Of a stretch of DNA of 54,297 nt, positions 45,383 to 52,425 are shown piece by piece. Source of the DNA: Sulfurospirillum tamanense (GTDB lineage: Bacteria; Campylobacterota; Campylobacteria; Campylobacterales; Campylobacteraceae); NCBI RefSeq assembly GCF_016937535.1, contig NZ_JAFHKK010000018.1, forward strand, positions 1-54,297, given 5' to 3'. The first letter of the stretch is position 1, and every line of letters starts with the position of its first letter. The position numbers were made by a program, and so were the translations under genes. Below the pieces are notes generated by a model that had not been told where the DNA came from, did no database searches, and saw only the letters and a program-made list of their open reading frames with translations.

Positions 45383-46810
45383 TTGCGGTCAACACTATCT
45401 CTTGCGGGCGCACTCGTATTGACGCTGCTTACTCTTTTTTTTGCCACGCACCGTTATATTTTGTCAAACTACTACGCGCTTGAAATTTCACAAAATGAAC
45501 GCACGATTAGCGGCTTGTTGCAAAGCATCCATGCCCAAACTGATTTTGTAAAAAAAATAGCCAGAGATTATGCTGCATGGGATGATACTTTTGCTTTTGT
45601 AGAAACAGGCTCCCGTGACTTTATAAATACTAATTTTAGAGAAAACACCCACACGCTAGAGGAGCTTGAGGTTTGTGGGATGATTTTTCTTAATAGAAAC
45701 AATCAACCCGTTTGGCAAGTTTTCTCTTCCGCTCTCCACGCCCCCAAGGTGCTGATGGAAAAAGTGCTTGCGCGTGAAGGCGTGGCGTCTGGGGGATTTG
45801 TGTTTTTGGATGAAGAGATTTATTTTTATGATGGTCATCCGATTACCAAATCAGATGCCAGTGGGCCTTCAAATGGGCGATTGCTGGTTGTTGGAAAATT
45901 GGACATCGTGGCACTTAAAAACCAAAACCCTGAGCTGATTGCGCTTCATACACTCTCTTCCTTTGTATCCAAGCAAAACCCACGGCATTTTACCGTAGCG
46001 GGCAGAGAGGTTGCTGTTGTGACCCAGTGGAAAGAGGAGAGGGCGGAGAATTTTATTCATATTGGCGGGCTTGATGAGGGGCAGGGGCTTTTCGCAATCC
46101 ACGGCCGTGAAATGATGCTGCAAGGCAAGCGGGCTTTGCAGTTGTTTTTGCTAGTAGTAAGTAGCATGACAACGGTGATTTTTTTGCTTATTTTCTTTCG
46201 GCAAAAAGAAGCTCAAAAAGAGAAAGAGATTCTCAAGCAAACCGTTGCGTTGCGTACACAAGATTTAAAGCGCACTACTAAAGAACTTGAGTTGACGGTT
46301 GAAAAACTTGAGCGCATTGCTTATGTGGACGAACTTACGGGGGTTCAAACAAGACGGAGTTTTTTTGAGACGATTCGCTCCTTGCTAAAAAGTGCCGCCA
46401 AAGAGAAAAAGAACCTCTGTGTGGCGTTGATTGATTTGGATGATTTTAAACTCATTAATGACACGTATGGGCATGGGGCTGGGGATTTGGTTTTGAAAGA
46501 TTTTTGCGATGCTTGCCGAAAGTTCCTAGATGAGCGTATGCTTTTTGCACGGATTGGGGGCGAAGAGTTTGTGATTAGTTTTTACGGCATGTCACTTAAA
46601 AGTGCCGAGGCCATCTGTGTAAAAATTCAGGATTATGTGGGTGAAAATCCTGTGGCTATCGATGCTCGTACCCACGTTGCGTATACCTTTAGTCTAGGGA
46701 TGGCAGACAACGGGGATGCTGAAGATATCGATGCCATACTGCGTCAGGCAGATGAGCGGTTGTATACGGCAAAATCCCTAGGAAAAAATAACATTCGGAG
46801 TCGAAGCTAG
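45383..46810 (+). CDS. CHASE4-GGDEF diguanylate cyclase
   Basis: 475 residues starting with TTG 45383 behind AAGGAGCACC. An N-terminal membrane helix, a periplasmic CHASE4-like sensor (about residues 35-250, with KIARDYAAWDDTFAFV and a late HIGGLDEGQGLF), a second membrane helix, a coiled coil and a GGDEF domain. The active-site motif is GGEEF in ARIGGEEFVISFYG, so it should make cyclic di-GMP in response to a periplasmic signal. No RxxD inhibitory site is obvious upstream of GGEEF. Its stop overlaps the stop of the convergent thioesterase gene by CTAG. Confidence 0.9.
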   Translation: MRSTLSLAGALVLTLLTLFFATHRYILSNYYALEISQNERTISGLLQSIHAQTDFVKKIARDYAAWDDTFAFVETGSRDFINTNFRENTHTLEELEVCGMIFLNRNNQPVWQVFSSALHAPKVLMEKVLAREGVASGGFVFLDEEIYFYDGHPITKSDASGPSNGRLLVVGKLDIVALKNQNPELIALHTLSSFVSKQNPRHFTVAGREVAVVTQWKEERAENFIHIGGLDEGQGLFAIHGREMMLQGKRALQLFLLVVSSMTTVIFLLIFFRQKEAQKEKEILKQTVALRTQDLKRTTKELELTVEKLERIAYVDELTGVQTRRSFFETIRSLLKSAAKEKKNLCVALIDLDDFKLINDTYGHGAGDLVLKDFCDACRKFLDERMLFARIGGEEFVISFYGMSLKSAEAICVKIQDYVGENPVAIDARTHVAYTFSLGMADNGDAEDIDAILRQADERLYTAKSLGKNNIRSRS

Positions 46811-47277
46811 AGGTTACTGTAGCCATGCAGACGCAATTCTCGGCGTTTTTGACCGTCGTGAAAACGGCGTTTTTCGAGATCTGTTTTTGGTTCAAAGGGC
46901 GGAACCGGCACAGGCTTTCCCTCTGGGTCTACGGCCACCATTGTAAAAAAACAACTGTTGGTGTCCATAACAGTTCCTTTCTGAATGTTTTCAGAAACCA
47001 CCTTAATGCCCACCTCCATGGATGTTTTGCCCGTATAGTTAACACTGGCTAAAAACGTTACAAGATCACCCACATGTACCGAATGGCGAAAGACTACCTG
47101 GTCGACGCTCATGGTGACTACATAGCCCCCACAATAGCGTGATGCGCACGCATAAGCCACTTGGTCGAGGTATTTTAAGATGTCACCCCCGTGTACTTTG
47201 CCTGAAAAATTGGCTTTATCGGGCGTCATAAGCACGGACATGGTGAGCTTGTGTTTTTCAAAGGGTAACATTTCCAC
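46807..47277 (-). CDS. Acyl-CoA thioesterase, hotdog fold (YciA/BFIT type)
   Basis: 156 residues from GTG 47277, chosen because AAGGATGG sits 6-12 bases upstream; an ATG two codons later is possible. The core is DKANFSGKVHGGDILKYLDQVAYACASRYCGGYVVTMSVDQVVF, with the catalytic aspartate and the HGG motif. It hydrolyses acyl-CoA thioesters. It is 54 bases downstream of the ANL ligase on the same strand, so it could belong to the glutamate mutase operon. A perfect repeat overlaps its ribosome-site region. Confidence 0.87.
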   Translation of the reverse strand: MEMLPFEKHKLTMSVLMTPDKANFSGKVHGGDILKYLDQVAYACASRYCGGYVVTMSVDQVVFRHSVHVGDLVTFLASVNYTGKTSMEVGIKVVSENIQKGTVMDTNSCFFTMVAVDPEGKPVPVPPFEPKTDLEKRRFHDGQKRRELRLHGYSNL

Positions 47278-47331: not shown

Positions 47332-48909
47332 CTATTCAACGGCCACCACCTCTTTTTTGAGGGCTTCTTTGTCGATTTCCCCTTGGCTAGGACTCGTCAG
47401 AGGCAAGCGCAGTTTGTAAAGAATGCGCGTGGGAAGCATGTGGTTGGGCAAGTGTTTTTTGAGCTCAAAGAGTAACTCGTTTTTTGGAATCTCACTCAGA
47501 GCGCTATAGCACAAGACAATGGCTTCTTCGGTCGCTTCATCGGGGATGGAAAAGACCGCGCACTCTTTCACGGAGGGCACATGGTGGTACACTACCGTTT
47601 CGATTTCGTAAGGACTAACGCGAAAACCGCAGGATTTTATCATGTCGTCTTTGCGGTCCACAAAGTACAAAAATCCCTCTTCATCGCTATAGACATAATC
47701 ACCACTGGCTACGACAATCTCATCGGTAAGTTGCCCCTCAAGGTCAACCACATTTTTGAGTATTTGCACGCTTTTAAAGCGTTGGGCTGTAGCATCGGGC
47801 GCATTCCAAAAGCCTTTGTAGATGTACCCGCCACGGTGAATCAGTTCGCCCACTTCGCGGGGTTTGCACGCATTGCCCTCTTCGTTTAGCACGTACACTT
47901 CCACATCCGGAATGGGCTTGCCGATGGAGTTTGGACGAATGGCAAGCTGAGACGGGTCAAGGTAGGTAGAACGAAAGGCTTCAGTGAGGCCATGCATAGA
48001 GTAAAACTTGGCATGGGGGTACAGCGTGGCAATGTGTTGGAGCATCTTGGGCGTGATTTTCCCTCCTGAGGAAGTGACGGTGCGCACATGGCGCAAAAGC
48101 TCAGGATGGGGCAAGCGGTGGCCGGGTTCTTCATCGACCATCAACGAAATGTGAATAGGCATGAGGGGCAGGATGGTCACCTTGTCTTGGATGAGGTGAT
48201 TAAAAAAGTCTGAGGGCAGCACAAGGCGGTGTAAGGCGAGGGTGGCGTGTTTGTAAAGAGCGCAAAAAAGTTGGTTGAGGCCGTAGTCAAAAATGAAAGG
48301 CAAAATACCTGAGATAACGTCATGGGAGCGGATGTCAAGGTAGTGGGAAACTACCCGCGCCGAGTCGATGAGGTTGCGGTGGGTGAGGACGATGCCATTG
48401 GGTAAGGCGGAGGCGCCAAAGCTGTAGGTGATGGCGGCGTTGGCATGGCCAAGGATGGTACATGTAAAGCTTTTGGCACAACATTTGTAGATCTCTTCAA
48501 AAGAAACCAACGCCTTATCGCACGCTTCGTAGGTGATGATGGTGCCTTCAAAACTGCTCTCTTGCAAGGCGGGAAGCTTTTTGGCGTCGGTTAACACGCA
48601 GCTAATGGCGCAATCTTGAATGATGTGCTCCACTTGTTCGGGTTTGAGGAGTCTGGAGATGGGCACAAGGATGTACGGGGAAGAGAGCAGGGCGTAGATG
48701 GCGATGCATTGCTCTAGGGATTTGTGGGAGTAAATGCCCACCCGTGCTCCTTTTTTAAGGCCAAGGCTGTCAAGGTAGGTGGCCACTTGGTTGACTTTTT
48801 CAAAGAGTTCGCCGTAGGTGATGCGCCGCTCTTTTTCAATGAGGGCAATAGCTTCAGGATTGGTGCGTGCCGCGGTTTCAAGCAGGGTTCGGATGCAGTT
48901 AATCGACAT
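47332..48909 (-). CDS. ANL-superfamily (AMP-forming) ligase with degenerate catalytic motifs
   Basis: 525 residues from ATG 48909, supported by AGGAGAACACC. The overall fold is clear: NPEAIALIEKERRITYGELFEKVNQVATYL, FSMHGLTEAF in place of YGxTE, SGDYVYSDEEGFLYFVDRKDDMIKSCGFRVSPYEIE. Two core motifs are unusual. The Ser/Thr/Gly-rich P-loop (normally YTSGSTGxPKG) reads YSFGASALPNG, and the catalytic lysine of the C-terminal GKID is glutamate (GEID, near residue 511). It may activate an acid poorly or work by another chemistry. It is the fourth gene of the glutamate mutase operon and overlaps glmL by 11 bases. Confidence 0.85.
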   Translation of the reverse strand: MSINCIRTLLETAARTNPEAIALIEKERRITYGELFEKVNQVATYLDSLGLKKGARVGIYSHKSLEQCIAIYALLSSPYILVPISRLLKPEQVEHIIQDCAISCVLTDAKKLPALQESSFEGTIITYEACDKALVSFEEIYKCCAKSFTCTILGHANAAITYSFGASALPNGIVLTHRNLIDSARVVSHYLDIRSHDVISGILPFIFDYGLNQLFCALYKHATLALHRLVLPSDFFNHLIQDKVTILPLMPIHISLMVDEEPGHRLPHPELLRHVRTVTSSGGKITPKMLQHIATLYPHAKFYSMHGLTEAFRSTYLDPSQLAIRPNSIGKPIPDVEVYVLNEEGNACKPREVGELIHRGGYIYKGFWNAPDATAQRFKSVQILKNVVDLEGQLTDEIVVASGDYVYSDEEGFLYFVDRKDDMIKSCGFRVSPYEIETVVYHHVPSVKECAVFSIPDEATEEAIVLCYSALSEIPKNELLFELKKHLPNHMLPTRILYKLRLPLTSPSQGEIDKEALKKEVVAVE

Positions 48910-50086
48910 GGTGTTCTCCTGTGATGCCAAGGGTCCAAATGGCGTAATGGGTGTCTAAAACCACCGCTGGAGCGTGGTGGAGGCCGAGGATTTTTTTGTA
49001 AAAAAAGTGCAAAATACTCTCGCACTCTTCCTGACTTAATACCTTAGTGATGCCGCCGGTGAGCACGATGCTCTCCAAGCGTTCAAGCCCCAAAGTAATG
49101 TAGCCTTGGTGAAACTTGGAGGTTTTGTATAGCACTAAAAAGATGGAGAGTTGCATGAGTACATGTAAGGCTTTTTCGCTGTGCTCTTCAAAGATTTTCT
49201 CTGTCACATCCAGCGTGCTTAAGAGTTCGTACACGTACTCGTTTTGTTTGGCCGCGTGGATGAGGCTCTCTTTGGATTTGTACACACCGAGTTTCTTAAA
49301 AACCAAGCGGTCGTAGGCGTTGCCCGTGAGCAAGCGTTCACTTACAAGGTCTTTGCTGTAGTGGATGTCCGTCGTCGCCCCGCCAATGTCAAGGACGATG
49401 AAGGGGTCCACGACTTCGAGTTGCTCCCCGATGCGTGGCAACGCGCGGTTGACGATGTAAGGCGTGGGGTAGATTTGGTTAGCGGTGATGGCGTAGAGTT
49501 CTTTGATCTCTTCTTTGCCCATAATGTCCGCTTGGTAGAGATTGGTGAGGGTGGTTTTTAGGGGTTCTTCTTGGATGTGTAAGCGTTCGTCAATGATGTT
49601 GGGCAAAAGGATAGCATGGGGAAGATTGGCGCTGATAAAGGGCGTATCTTGCGCAGTGCCTACGTACACAAGGTTAGTGTAGTTTAGGTTTTGAAGGTAG
49701 GTCAACAAGGCATCATCAAACACGCCATTGACGCCATCAATCCCGCCTACCAAAATGACTACGTCTAGCACGTCGCCTGGGACGGGAGCGTGGGCGATGT
49801 CTTTGTACAGGACGGTATCGATGATGTTGATGCCCGCGTTGTAGGTAATGTTTTTGGCGTATTTGAGGCTAAAGGAGTGGGTTAGGCCGATAATCAGCGT
49901 ACTTAAACCACCATTTGCAGAAGAGCAGATGTAAATATCTTCTTTGGGTACGCCTTGGAGGAGTTCCCCACATTTGGCGCGTAAATCTTCGTGGATGGGG
50001 CGTGAAAAATCCCGAAAATGCTGGCTAAGGCCATGGGCGGAGGCGGTTTTGATGTAGGTGCTTCCCACGTCGATGAGTAGTTTCAT
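48899..50086 (-). CDS. glmL: MutL/GlmL-type protein associated with glutamate mutase
   Basis: 395 residues, ASKHA ATPase fold. The N-terminal phosphate-1 loop is LLIDVGSTYIKTA, the second is FIVLDIGGATTDIHYS (about residues 225-240), and the adenosine motif is SIVLTGGITKVLS. This family protects or reactivates coenzyme B12-dependent glutamate mutase. It is shorter than clostridial MutL (about 460). It overlaps glmE by 4 bases. A one-mismatch repeat encodes ALHVLM. Confidence 0.87.
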   Translation of the reverse strand: MKLLIDVGSTYIKTASAHGLSQHFRDFSRPIHEDLRAKCGELLQGVPKEDIYICSSANGGLSTLIIGLTHSFSLKYAKNITYNAGINIIDTVLYKDIAHAPVPGDVLDVVILVGGIDGVNGVFDDALLTYLQNLNYTNLVYVGTAQDTPFISANLPHAILLPNIIDERLHIQEEPLKTTLTNLYQADIMGKEEIKELYAITANQIYPTPYIVNRALPRIGEQLEVVDPFIVLDIGGATTDIHYSKDLVSERLLTGNAYDRLVFKKLGVYKSKESLIHAAKQNEYVYELLSTLDVTEKIFEEHSEKALHVLMQLSIFLVLYKTSKFHQGYITLGLERLESIVLTGGITKVLSQEECESILHFFYKKILGLHHAPAVVLDTHYAIWTLGITGEHHVD

Positions 50087-51447
50087 TGCATGACTCCAAT
50101 GTCGTGGATGATTTTTTCCACCATGGCGGTTTTGTTTTCAAAGCTTCCCGCTTTTGCCCGCTCATATGCTAGGCAACGCGCAGGGATAGGCACGTTACCT
50201 GGTTCCACGATGCGAATTGACCCACTGGGGTCGCGCAGGGTCAAGATGGCGTTGTGGTTGATGATGTGGGGCGAAAAAGGCACGTCGATGATGCCGTGCT
50301 TGATGGCGTTAAATGCCTTGCGCCACAAGGAGTCGGCAGGGTCGTTAAAGACCGCTTCCATGATGGCATGCACGGCAAGCTCTAAGTGTTCTTCTTCTTC
50401 GCCATCTTCAAACTGGGGCAGTCCTTGGACGATGCGCAAGATGTATTGGGTGTTGGCCACCGCTTGGGCGTTGCACTCCATGGTGGGGATGCCAAAGGCT
50501 TCGTCGCGGGTTTTGGTGATGATTTTATCGGCTCCTACCAATGTGGCAACGAGCGTGGCGGTGGTGATGAGCGCATCAGAGAACTCTTTGTTGCGCGGGA
50601 AAGCACCCATCCATTGGTGGTACACGAGCTGTGTTTTTGCACCCGCGCATCCGTGCAAGGCGGCGTAATGGGGGGCGAGTTTTTTGAGTACCTTGGCGGT
50701 GATGATGTCTTGGGAGAGCGAACCTGACTGGGAAAAACTCACCGAAAAACTCCGCACCCCTTCTTCCAAAGAAAGCAACATTTCAAGGAGTTGGATGACG
50801 ATGGTGATGGCGGGAGGCACCAAGGTGGCGGTGAGTGGCCCAAAGGATTCGCGGTTGATGGGCAGGTTGAGCGTTGAGTAGTGGGCGCACACTTTTTCCA
50901 CGTATTTCCAGTACAAAAAGGCCTTATCTAGCGGGAAGTTTTTGGAGTAAGGAAGCATGTAGGTGATGGGCCCGCCTTCAATCTCAAAAATCCCACTGGC
51001 AATGGCCGTTTCTACCAAGAGCCTTGCATCGGGCGTGCCATGGCGCAGGCTCACAGGGAGGTTGAAATGGGTCATCATTTTGCGCGTGGTGCGGTAGCCG
51101 TGGTTGATGAGCGGGAAGCCGTTGAGCATGTCGGTTTCGTTTTCTTCGGAGAGCATGAGCATTTTTTTGGCACTGGCGTAGTCGTTAAGGCGTGTGTGCG
51201 AATCAATAGTAATAGGCAAGACGTCGATGCCAGCCCCTGCAAAGGTTTCGTAGAGTTTGAACATTTTTTGGTACGTGGGAAAGCCCCCGCGAGGTTGGAC
51301 GAGCATTTTTGTTTTGGTGGCGTAGTGGTGGGAGATGAAGAGGTTTTTATCGGCTCCCTTGACAAACTCTTCCACTTCGGCAAAGTCAAAATTGTCCACG
51401 TATTCGTTAGACACGATGGTCTGGCGCTCCCGCTCAAACAGGCTCAT
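50083..51447 (-). CDS. glmE: Glutamate mutase epsilon (E) subunit
   Basis: 454 residues, TIM-barrel substrate-binding subunit of methylaspartate mutase, which interconverts glutamate and (2S,3S)-3-methylaspartate. The substrate contacts known in Clostridium cochlearium are all present at a constant offset of 13-14: Arg53 (QPRGG), Arg86 (SHTRLN), Arg135 (LRHGTPDARLL), Glu157, Tyr163 and Tyr167 (EGGPITYMLPYSKN). The Lys/Glu pair is also present in KTRDEAFGIPT. The enzyme should therefore be active on glutamate. It overlaps glmS and glmL by 4 bases each. Confidence 0.93.
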   Translation of the reverse strand: MSLFERERQTIVSNEYVDNFDFAEVEEFVKGADKNLFISHHYATKTKMLVQPRGGFPTYQKMFKLYETFAGAGIDVLPITIDSHTRLNDYASAKKMLMLSEENETDMLNGFPLINHGYRTTRKMMTHFNLPVSLRHGTPDARLLVETAIASGIFEIEGGPITYMLPYSKNFPLDKAFLYWKYVEKVCAHYSTLNLPINRESFGPLTATLVPPAITIVIQLLEMLLSLEEGVRSFSVSFSQSGSLSQDIITAKVLKKLAPHYAALHGCAGAKTQLVYHQWMGAFPRNKEFSDALITTATLVATLVGADKIITKTRDEAFGIPTMECNAQAVANTQYILRIVQGLPQFEDGEEEEHLELAVHAIMEAVFNDPADSLWRKAFNAIKHGIIDVPFSPHIINHNAILTLRDPSGSIRIVEPGNVPIPARCLAYERAKAGSFENKTAMVEKIIHDIGVMQ

Positions 51448-51848
51448 GCGCGCTCCTTCAAGTAAGCTTCCAAACGGTCAAGGCCCGTGTTGAGGTCGAT
51501 TTGGTGAAACACGAGGTCGAAGCCGTAGGCTTGGTATTTTGGCACAATAGTATCGTGGTTGGCTTCGCCCACGGCAAGGTTGCCGCCAATCATAAAGGTG
51601 ACGTTGCCAAAGTCGCGTTGGGATTTAATGAAGGGCAATTCACGGCACCATCCTTCGGCTTCGCCGTTGAGGGAAGAGATAAGCAAGATGTCTGCTTTGG
51701 TTTCGATGAGGGCATCGATGAACTCATCAAGGGAGGTGTTCACACCAAGGTTAAATACTTCAAATCCGCGGGCTTCAAGGGAGATGTGAATGAGACGGTT
51801 GGCAACAACGTGGATGTCGTTTCCAACTACACCAGTGACGACTTTCAT
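51444..51848 (-). CDS. glmS: Glutamate mutase sigma (S) subunit, cobalamin-binding
   Basis: 134 residues from ATG 51848 (MKVVTGVVGNDIHVVANRL). The B12-binding motif DxHxxG appears as D11-x-H13-x-x-A16, keeping the cobalt-ligating histidine but with alanine for glycine. The SxL of LLISSLNG and the GG of FMIGGNLAVG, which line the nucleotide tail pocket, are present. It is the first gene of the operon and overlaps glmE by 4 bases. It should not be confused with glucosamine synthase GlmS. Confidence 0.9.
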   Translation of the reverse strand: MKVVTGVVGNDIHVVANRLIHISLEARGFEVFNLGVNTSLDEFIDALIETKADILLISSLNGEAEGWCRELPFIKSQRDFGNVTFMIGGNLAVGEANHDTIVPKYQAYGFDLVFHQIDLNTGLDRLEAYLKERA

Positions 51849-51918
51849 GGGCAAGCCTAGTGAGGGAGTGGGCATAAGGAATAATGGGGGAAATTGTATC
51901 AAAAATATCTAAAAATGG

Positions 51919-51948: not shown

Positions 51949-52425
51949 ATGGGGTTTTTTACAGCAGATTTTTGCGATACATGTAAGGAAGGGATTCAAG
52001 TCCTCGGGCCAGGATTTTCGAACTTTGGGGGCAAGAAAAAGATGAAAGGTTCGCTTGTTACAGTCAAGCTCAATGAAAACAACCAAGAACTCATCCGCGT
52101 GTTGGACGAGGCGGGCCAAGGACGCGTGGTGGTGGTGGATGTGCAAGGGGTGTACGTGGCGGTTGTGGGGGAGAATTTAATGAAAAAAGCCCTTAAAAAC
52201 GGGTGGAGTGGTTTTGTGATTAACGGCTACGTGCGCGACGTGCATGCAACCAAGGAGATTGGGGTGGGCTTGTGGGCGCTGGGGACTTGCCCCCGAAAAT
52301 GTCCTGATTTATTGCCTGGATTTGTGGACCACACGGTAGAGTTTGGCGGTGTAAAATTTGAGCCAGGTGCCTACGTGTACGCGGACATGGACGGGGTGAT
52401 TGTGAGCAAGGAAGCCTTAATTTGA
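51949..52425 (+). CDS. rraA: RraA-family protein (RNase E inhibitor-like/aldolase-like)
   Basis: 158 residues, full RraA length. It starts GFFTADFCDTCKEGIQVLGPGF and contains GKKKMKGSLVTVKL, GRVVVVDVQGVYVAVVGENLMKKA, GFVINGYVRDV and a C-terminal GAYVYADMDGVIVS. Members bind RNase E or act as 4-hydroxy-4-methyl-2-oxoglutarate aldolases. If this organism lacks RNase E, a metabolic or other role is likelier. A one-mismatch repeat (51977-51986) encodes DTCKEG. Confidence 0.88.
   Translation: MGFFTADFCDTCKEGIQVLGPGFSNFGGKKKMKGSLVTVKLNENNQELIRVLDEAGQGRVVVVDVQGVYVAVVGENLMKKALKNGWSGFVINGYVRDVHATKEIGVGLWALGTCPRKCPDLLPGFVDHTVEFGGVKFEPGAYVYADMDGVIVSKEALI

Follow-up and report, generated by a model that had tools for sequence, protein, structure and literature searches.

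The present study suggests that an ANL-superfamily protein encoded in a 54,297-nucleotide stretch of Sulfurospirillum tamanense DNA (the whole stretch analysed, hereafter the window) may be a non-adenylating protein of the lineage of VinN, a 3-methylaspartate ligase, and the dedicated partner of a glutamate mutase. We hold this tentatively, as the best explanation of sequence comparisons, because its P-loop and A10 motif are changed, its pocket and thiolation residues are fixed, and its gene is inherited with the mutase and lies directly behind GlmL. ANL enzymes ligate in two steps: the P-loop and the A10 lysine act in the first, the A8 region in the second. An entire family, kept by selection, whose first-step residues are lost or variable and whose pocket and second-step residues do not vary would amount to a natural separation of function. 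The features concerned are the following.

47332 to 48909, minus strand: ANL-superfamily protein of 525 aa, of the VinN/TIGR03098 lineage, with degenerate adenylation motifs (ATG start; Pfam and NCBIfam profiles; orthologue alignment)
48394 to 48426, minus strand: A3 P-loop YSFGASALPNG, residues Y162 to G172, F164 being family-wide
47377 to 47379, minus strand: E511 (codon GAA; ttc on the plus strand) at the A10 catalytic lysine column, within SQGEIDKEAL
48283 to 48288, minus strand: D208-Y209, matching VinN D230-F231 (amino-group Asp and bulky neighbour), invariant in 86 of 86 orthologues
48067 to 48069, minus strand: S281, aligned with VinN S299, invariant in 86 of 86
47971 to 47982, minus strand: E310-A311-F312-R313, with the A5 Glu and, in a gap-free alignment, R313 as VinN R331; E310 and R313 invariant in 86 of 86
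47620 to 47637, minus strand: A8 region from K425 (GrsA K434, the thiolation lysine) to R430 (GrsA R439), both invariant in 86 of 86
48899 to 50086, minus strand: GlmL/MutL-type glutamate mutase accessory ATPase, 395 aa, overlapping the ANL start by 11 nt
50083 to 51447, minus strand: GlmE, methylaspartate (glutamate) mutase large subunit
51444 to 51902, minus strand: GlmS, cobalamin-binding small subunit, likely starting near 51848 to 51854, with the B12 motif DIHVVA
51949 to 52425, plus strand: RraA-like protein of the HMG aldolase/oxaloacetate decarboxylase fold, divergent and co-occurring with the mutase

The protein scored above the curated Pfam cut-offs for AMP-binding (PF00501; 3.2e-62, 211 bits versus 29.9) and AMP-binding_C (PF13193; 4.8e-6, 27.9 bits versus 24.5). 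Active ANL enzymes carry the A3 P-loop pattern [ST][SG]G[ST]TGxxKG; the window P-loop fails this pattern, and the window A10 motif lacks the catalytic lysine. A first-pass annotation had described GEID instead of GKID (codon GAA), the P-loop YSFGASALPNG and the A8 hinge stretch DRKDDMIKSCGFRVSPYEIE in a full-length protein of an intact operon that did not look like a pseudogene, and all of these observations were borne out. The same E511 and P-loop residues occur at 96% identity in a second Sulfurospirillum species (genome G001; L005/L073). Substitution counts between the window and this sister genome gave a dN/dS of 0.073 for the ANL gene and 0.049 for its GlmL and YciA neighbours; thus, the ANL gene evolves under purifying selection. 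All 86 distinct full-length orthologues are intact as well. The YciA-like acyl-CoA thioesterase gene (46807 to 47277) lies directly downstream of the ANL gene and, in the loci read, was matched at that position only in the window genus. An AlphaFold model from a 30-row alignment reached a mean pLDDT of 68; its P-loop and most of residues 305 to 421 fell below 50, too poor to judge the P-loop.

A local mutation, a sequencing error or an early pseudogene in a single lineage is contradicted by these data and can hardly be the explanation. The nearest clade, Sulfurospirillum, does have the A10 lysine and G, not A, at P-loop residue 168, so that E511 taken singly is lineage-specific, and a normal lysine in orthologues had been named at first pass as the sign of a local change. 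However, sequencing error and pseudogene were rejected on the identical motifs of the sister genome and the low dN/dS. Furthermore, since the lysine state has changed repeatedly elsewhere in the family and the P-loop change is family-wide, the case is not reducible to a local mutation.

Scanning genome contigs yielded 68 loci: 58 orthologues (L005 to L062; 59 to 96% identity) and 10 distant ANL relatives. The orthologue records are labelled Sulfurospirillum, Arcobacter-type genera, Sulfurimonas, Colwellia, Thalassotalea and other Gammaproteobacteria; many are MAGs, and some labels may be wrong. The alignment set comprises 86 distinct full-length family rows, with fragments shorter than 480 residues and all loci from number 123 upwards omitted (L162, L163, L166 and L167 are thus absent). 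In these rows, the A10 lysine column reads K in 59, Q in 10, E in 7, R in 5, V in 2, L in 2 and M in 1, the lysine being missing from 27. The conservation of Glu, raised as a question at first pass, was therefore not found, and Glu as a new conserved catalytic residue was rejected because the column is variable. Residues 500 to 513 of the window protein contain no Lys, hence no obvious substitute within that loop. K514 was likewise rejected as a replacement lysine near A10: it is K in 75 of 86 rows, yet Arg in TIGR03098, and several members lacking Lys511 (L029, L050, L055, L088) are without K514 as well.

At P-loop position 2 (residue 164), Phe is found in 85 of the 86 orthologues, with V in the remaining one, versus none of 40 other ANL rows. 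Position 4 (residue 166) is L, I, V or M in 68 rows, S in 15 and A in 3. Position 1 (residue 163) is Ser in 85 rows and Thr in one, and position 5 (residue 167) is S or T in 80. G165, G168, P170 and G172 are kept in most orthologues. Residue 168 is G in 84 of 86, A168 of the window being a local change; N171 is local too, with N at this residue in 11 of the 86 rows, and the otherwise canonical ligases L170 to L172 likewise contain PNG.

The main rival explanation is that the protein acts as a 3-methylaspartate ligase that continues to depend on ATP (CoA- or carrier-forming), its variant P-loop being functional and its A10 lysine helpful but dispensable. We consider this possible, though less than probable. 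Lysine is the commonest A10 residue, and the hydroxyls at P-loop positions 1 and 5 remain; both facts count against a non-adenylating protein, and together with the largely kept glycines and proline of the loop they favor an active ligase. The strong purifying selection and the invariance of the A5 Glu, A7 Asp and A8 Arg/Lys point the same way. The A5 Glu (E310 here) normally lies near Mg-ATP; its invariance and the remaining P-loop hydroxyls would therefore suit an active enzyme as well. Against such a ligase stand the 27 orthologues with Q, E, R, L, V or M at A10, E being the window residue, and the nearly universal Phe at position 2.

In GrsA, K434 (A8) is the lysine of the thiolation half-reaction and K517 (A10) that of the adenylation half-reaction, and an R439-E327 salt bridge forms upon the switch to the thiolation state (an excerpt of PMC11253843). 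By motif alignment, GrsA K434, K517, R439 and E327 correspond to K425, residue 511, R430 and E310 of the window protein. D208, Y209, S281, E310, R313, D404, R419, K425, G428 and R430 are each present in 86 of 86 orthologues, and these include the A5 Glu, the A7 Asp and the A8 Arg/Lys (E310, D404, R419, K425, R430). With the GrsA roles mapped onto the variable residue 511 and the invariant K425, R430 and E310, the alignment indicates free variation of the adenylation lysine and strict conservation of the residues of the thiolation state. A thioester-only enzyme or a binding protein, proposed at first pass beside a ligase of altered chemistry, agrees both with what is kept (the A8 lysine, the A5-A8 salt-bridge residues and the pocket, each 86 of 86) and with what is lost (the A10 lysine in 27 of 86, the canonical P-loop in all); Glu as a conserved replacement is unsupported.

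The same contrast between K425 with the E310-R430 pair, the thiolation-state residues of the PMC11253843 excerpt, and the variable adenylation-only lysine would also be expected of a thioester-only enzyme that interconverts or hydrolyses a 3-methylaspartyl adenylate or thioester supplied from elsewhere. This is unlikely: no other, canonical 3-methylaspartate ligase that could supply the adenylate was found within the operon, adenylates are labile, and the neighborhood lacks a conserved gene for a dedicated thiol partner.

The substrate pocket connects the protein to VinN, the (2S,3S)-3-methylaspartate adenylation enzyme of vicenistatin biosynthesis (PDB 3WV4, 3WV5, 3WVN). Among solved structures, VinN ranks first for residues 255 to 430 (3wvn, 2.2e-20; 3wv4, 1.2e-16; next HitB-type, 5e-13), an affinity that is regional, as linear gramicidin synthase ranks higher for the whole protein and 4-coumarate-CoA ligase for residues 150 to 330. 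The alignment is gap-free over VinN chain positions 304 to 406, including S299 and R331, the chain numbering being taken as 16 above the literature numbers (an inferred offset under which K330, R331 and S299 fall on the expected residues). In the window protein, S281 and R313 take the places of VinN S299 and R331; K330 corresponds to F312, which is F in 85 of 86 orthologues. D230/F231 were placed on D208/Y209 by offset and motif, that VinN stretch lying outside the printed alignment, and Y209 is aromatic, not F. Through the b13-b14 loop, which is short in VinN-type enzymes, the window protein aligns without gaps. According to an excerpt of PMC11253843, the VinN pocket residues allow (2S,3S)-3-methylaspartate to be bound as a beta-amino acid. 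The P-loop and A10 of the window protein are altered, unlike those of VinN.

An excerpt of PMC10662134 has VinN pathways beginning with a glutamate mutase, which is also the setting of the window operon, and describes natural-product clusters whose glutamate mutase and 3-methylaspartate adenylation enzyme are predicted to cooperate with a carrier protein and a decarboxylase. A VinN-like pocket beside a mutase that makes 3-methylaspartate mirrors these clusters with their predicted ligase, in favor of an active ligase. However, no carrier protein, PLP decarboxylase or polyketide genes were seen adjoining the operon in the loci read, which is less easily reconciled with a ligase.

TIGR03098 (ligase_PEP_1, exosortase A-associated AMP-forming ligase) is the top NCBIfam match of the window protein (6.7e-136, 453.8 bits; next 242.1). 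The score lies below the curated cut-off of 592.35 bits, and seven other orthologues scored 420.1 to 449.3. TIGR03098 members align to the window protein at about 33 to 37% identity and have FDYG (A4), GLTEAFRST (A5) and MIKTSGYRV (A8) in common with its family. They were represented by 23 rows standing for 43 over-cut-off genomes (22 of the 30 fetched loci with an ANL-labelled ORF, plus L172_3). All 23 have the P-loop T-S-G-S-T and the A10 Lys, in both of which the mutase-linked family differs, and TSG and the A10 Lys are kept in 40 of 40 non-family ANL rows. Because these relatives are canonical throughout, the P-loop and A10 changes are, judged from the alignment, derived within the mutase-linked clade. 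The 23 TIGR03098 rows have 160 columns conserved at 95% or more. Of these columns, 84 are retained by 90% or more of the mutase-linked family; the P-loop and A10 fall among the other 76, and are not the sole ones there.

A tree was built by a quick method from 72 of the 86 family rows (below 93% mutual identity) and 8 of the 23 TIGR03098 rows, with both motifs excluded. On it, the mutase-linked family forms a single clade against TIGR03098 (SH-aLRT 100), with a long branch between the groups, and the K/non-K state at A10 changed at least 9 times. At the pocket columns, the 23 TIGR03098 rows read D in 23, Y in 20 and A in 3, S in 20 and T in 3, and R in 23. Since they show the same signature, the VinN-like pocket by itself predates the mutase link. 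TIGR03098 ligases with this signature (L126 to L155, L172) may activate an aspartate-type amino acid via its beta-carboxylate. Their gene context differs from that of the window family, a PLP-decarboxylase-like gene lying beside the ligase in L126, L131 and L155 (by eye).

The operon runs GlmS-GlmE-GlmL-ANL, with gene overlaps of 4, 4 and 11 nt. The product of glutamate mutase is 3-methylaspartate. Nine substrate residues of Clostridium cochlearium GlmE (R66, R100, R149, H150, E171, Y177, Y181, K326, E330) are all identical in the window GlmE alignment, and their window counterparts (R53, R86, R135, H136, E157, Y163, Y167, K312, E316) are invariant in 60 to 63 GlmE rows. GlmE scores just below the TIGR01503 cut-off (373.1 versus 390.1 bits), and GlmS is over NF002612 (155.3 versus 110) and under TIGR01501 (97 versus 135.8). 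The cobalamin motif of GlmS is DxHxxG; here each of the 57 rows reads DxHxxA, with the Asp and the His kept. GlmL is short (NF040745, 81.7 bits versus a cut-off of 475), with its ATPase motifs kept. The clostridial operon, GlmS-GlmL-GlmE with methylaspartase, has the GlmS, GlmE and GlmL homologues and the kept GlmE substrate residues in common with that of the window, which differs in its added ANL gene, its GlmL of 395 aa, its DxHxxA motif and the lack of methylaspartase. Classic glutamate fermentation via methylaspartase is unsupported, as that enzyme was over cut-off in 0 of 49 genomes (44 Campylobacterota and 5 reached via Gammaproteobacteria-labelled loci).

The ANL protein was detected in 56 of 397 sampled Campylobacterota genomes (E at most 1e-100) and GlmE in 57; all 56 ANL-bearing genomes are among these 57, and none of the 340 genomes lacking GlmE has the ANL protein. 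GlmL stands immediately before ANL in 54 of the 58 contig loci, the other four (L050, L053, L056, L059) beginning at or inside ANL. In L111 and L178, GlmE is apart from GlmL, yet GlmL and ANL are still adjacent. The one exception, G356, keeps GlmS-GlmE-GlmL-RraA without ANL, GlmL being followed by another gene with no ANL trace downstream. In other words, the partner is not strictly needed in that genome, since the mutase genes and RraA persist there. Its genus-mate G350 (L107) has an ANL protein whose A5 motif is altered (SMIGHIEAF); both genomes keep the mutase genes and RraA.

These observations point to a glutamate-mutase system (GlmS-GlmE-GlmL-ANL plus RraA) without methylaspartase in Campylobacterota and Gammaproteobacteria, the ANL protein accompanying the B12-dependent mutase in numerous bacteria of marine and sulfur habits. 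A literature search found no description of the ANL protein or of this operon. The glutamate-mutase link and the 3-methylaspartate pocket both go beyond the first-pass reading.

For a non-adenylating mutase partner, we propose that a 3-methylaspartate ligase ancestor, recognisable by its pocket, would have become a fixed companion of the mutase-GlmL pair. The mutase would convert glutamate to (2S,3S)-3-methylaspartate, and the ANL protein would bind this product, perhaps with an adenosine nucleotide, in a thiolation-like conformation, the ATP-dependent adenylation half-reaction no longer being needed. Alternatively, it might use the second half-reaction alone. More speculatively, and as a proposal from gene order, the bound ligand could serve to sense the product or to maintain the reactivation machinery of mutase and GlmL in its proper state. 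A further extension, in which the ANL fold, no longer adenylating, was recruited to serve an adenosylcobalamin mutase as cofactor chaperone or product sensor, seems a long shot; through its retained pocket for adenosine and 3-methylaspartate, the protein would then act with GlmL in loading, adenosyl handling or reactivation of the mutase. We know of no B12-mutase accessory system with an ANL fold.

Given the lack of methylaspartase, the fate of 3-methylaspartate in these bacteria becomes a testable question. The RraA-like gene was found in 44 of 44 mutase-bearing genomes versus 1 of 36 others, a comparison uncorrected for kinship that covers 44 of the 57 mutase-bearing and 36 of the 340 other genomes of the Campylobacterota sample. 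Of the 57 loci that extend 700 bases or more upstream, near-duplicates included, 45 have it in divergent orientation no more than 3 kb from GlmS, and it probably belongs to the glutamate-mutase pathway. The single genome with such genes among the 36 mutase-free ones, G208, has three of them. HMG/CHA aldolase has an essential Arg-123 and a metal-binding Asp-124 and also decarboxylates oxaloacetate (an excerpt of PMC5065237). Because the equivalent pair, R96-D97, is present in 43 of 43 RraA-like proteins, the protein is probably an enzyme, and the oxaloacetate activity of the aldolase makes conversion of 3-methyloxaloacetate to 2-oxobutyrate a plausible onward step. More speculatively, RraA and an aminotransferase would take the carbon skeleton onward, possibly from methyloxaloacetate to 2-oxobutyrate. 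A glutamate-mutase route to isoleucine is named in an excerpt of PMC7476758. That the mutase route replaces threonine deaminase in isoleucine synthesis is unsupported, as IlvA (TIGR01127, over cut-off) occurs in 44 of 44 mutase-bearing genomes of the same subset; 2-oxobutyrate formation is possible as an additional route beside IlvA. In L027, a Gammaproteobacteria-labelled locus and the one tested, an aromatic amino acid transaminase gene (NF006719) adjoins RraA on its upstream side, and L034, L038, L049, L055 and L060 have a 395-residue ORF, matched by length only, at the same place.
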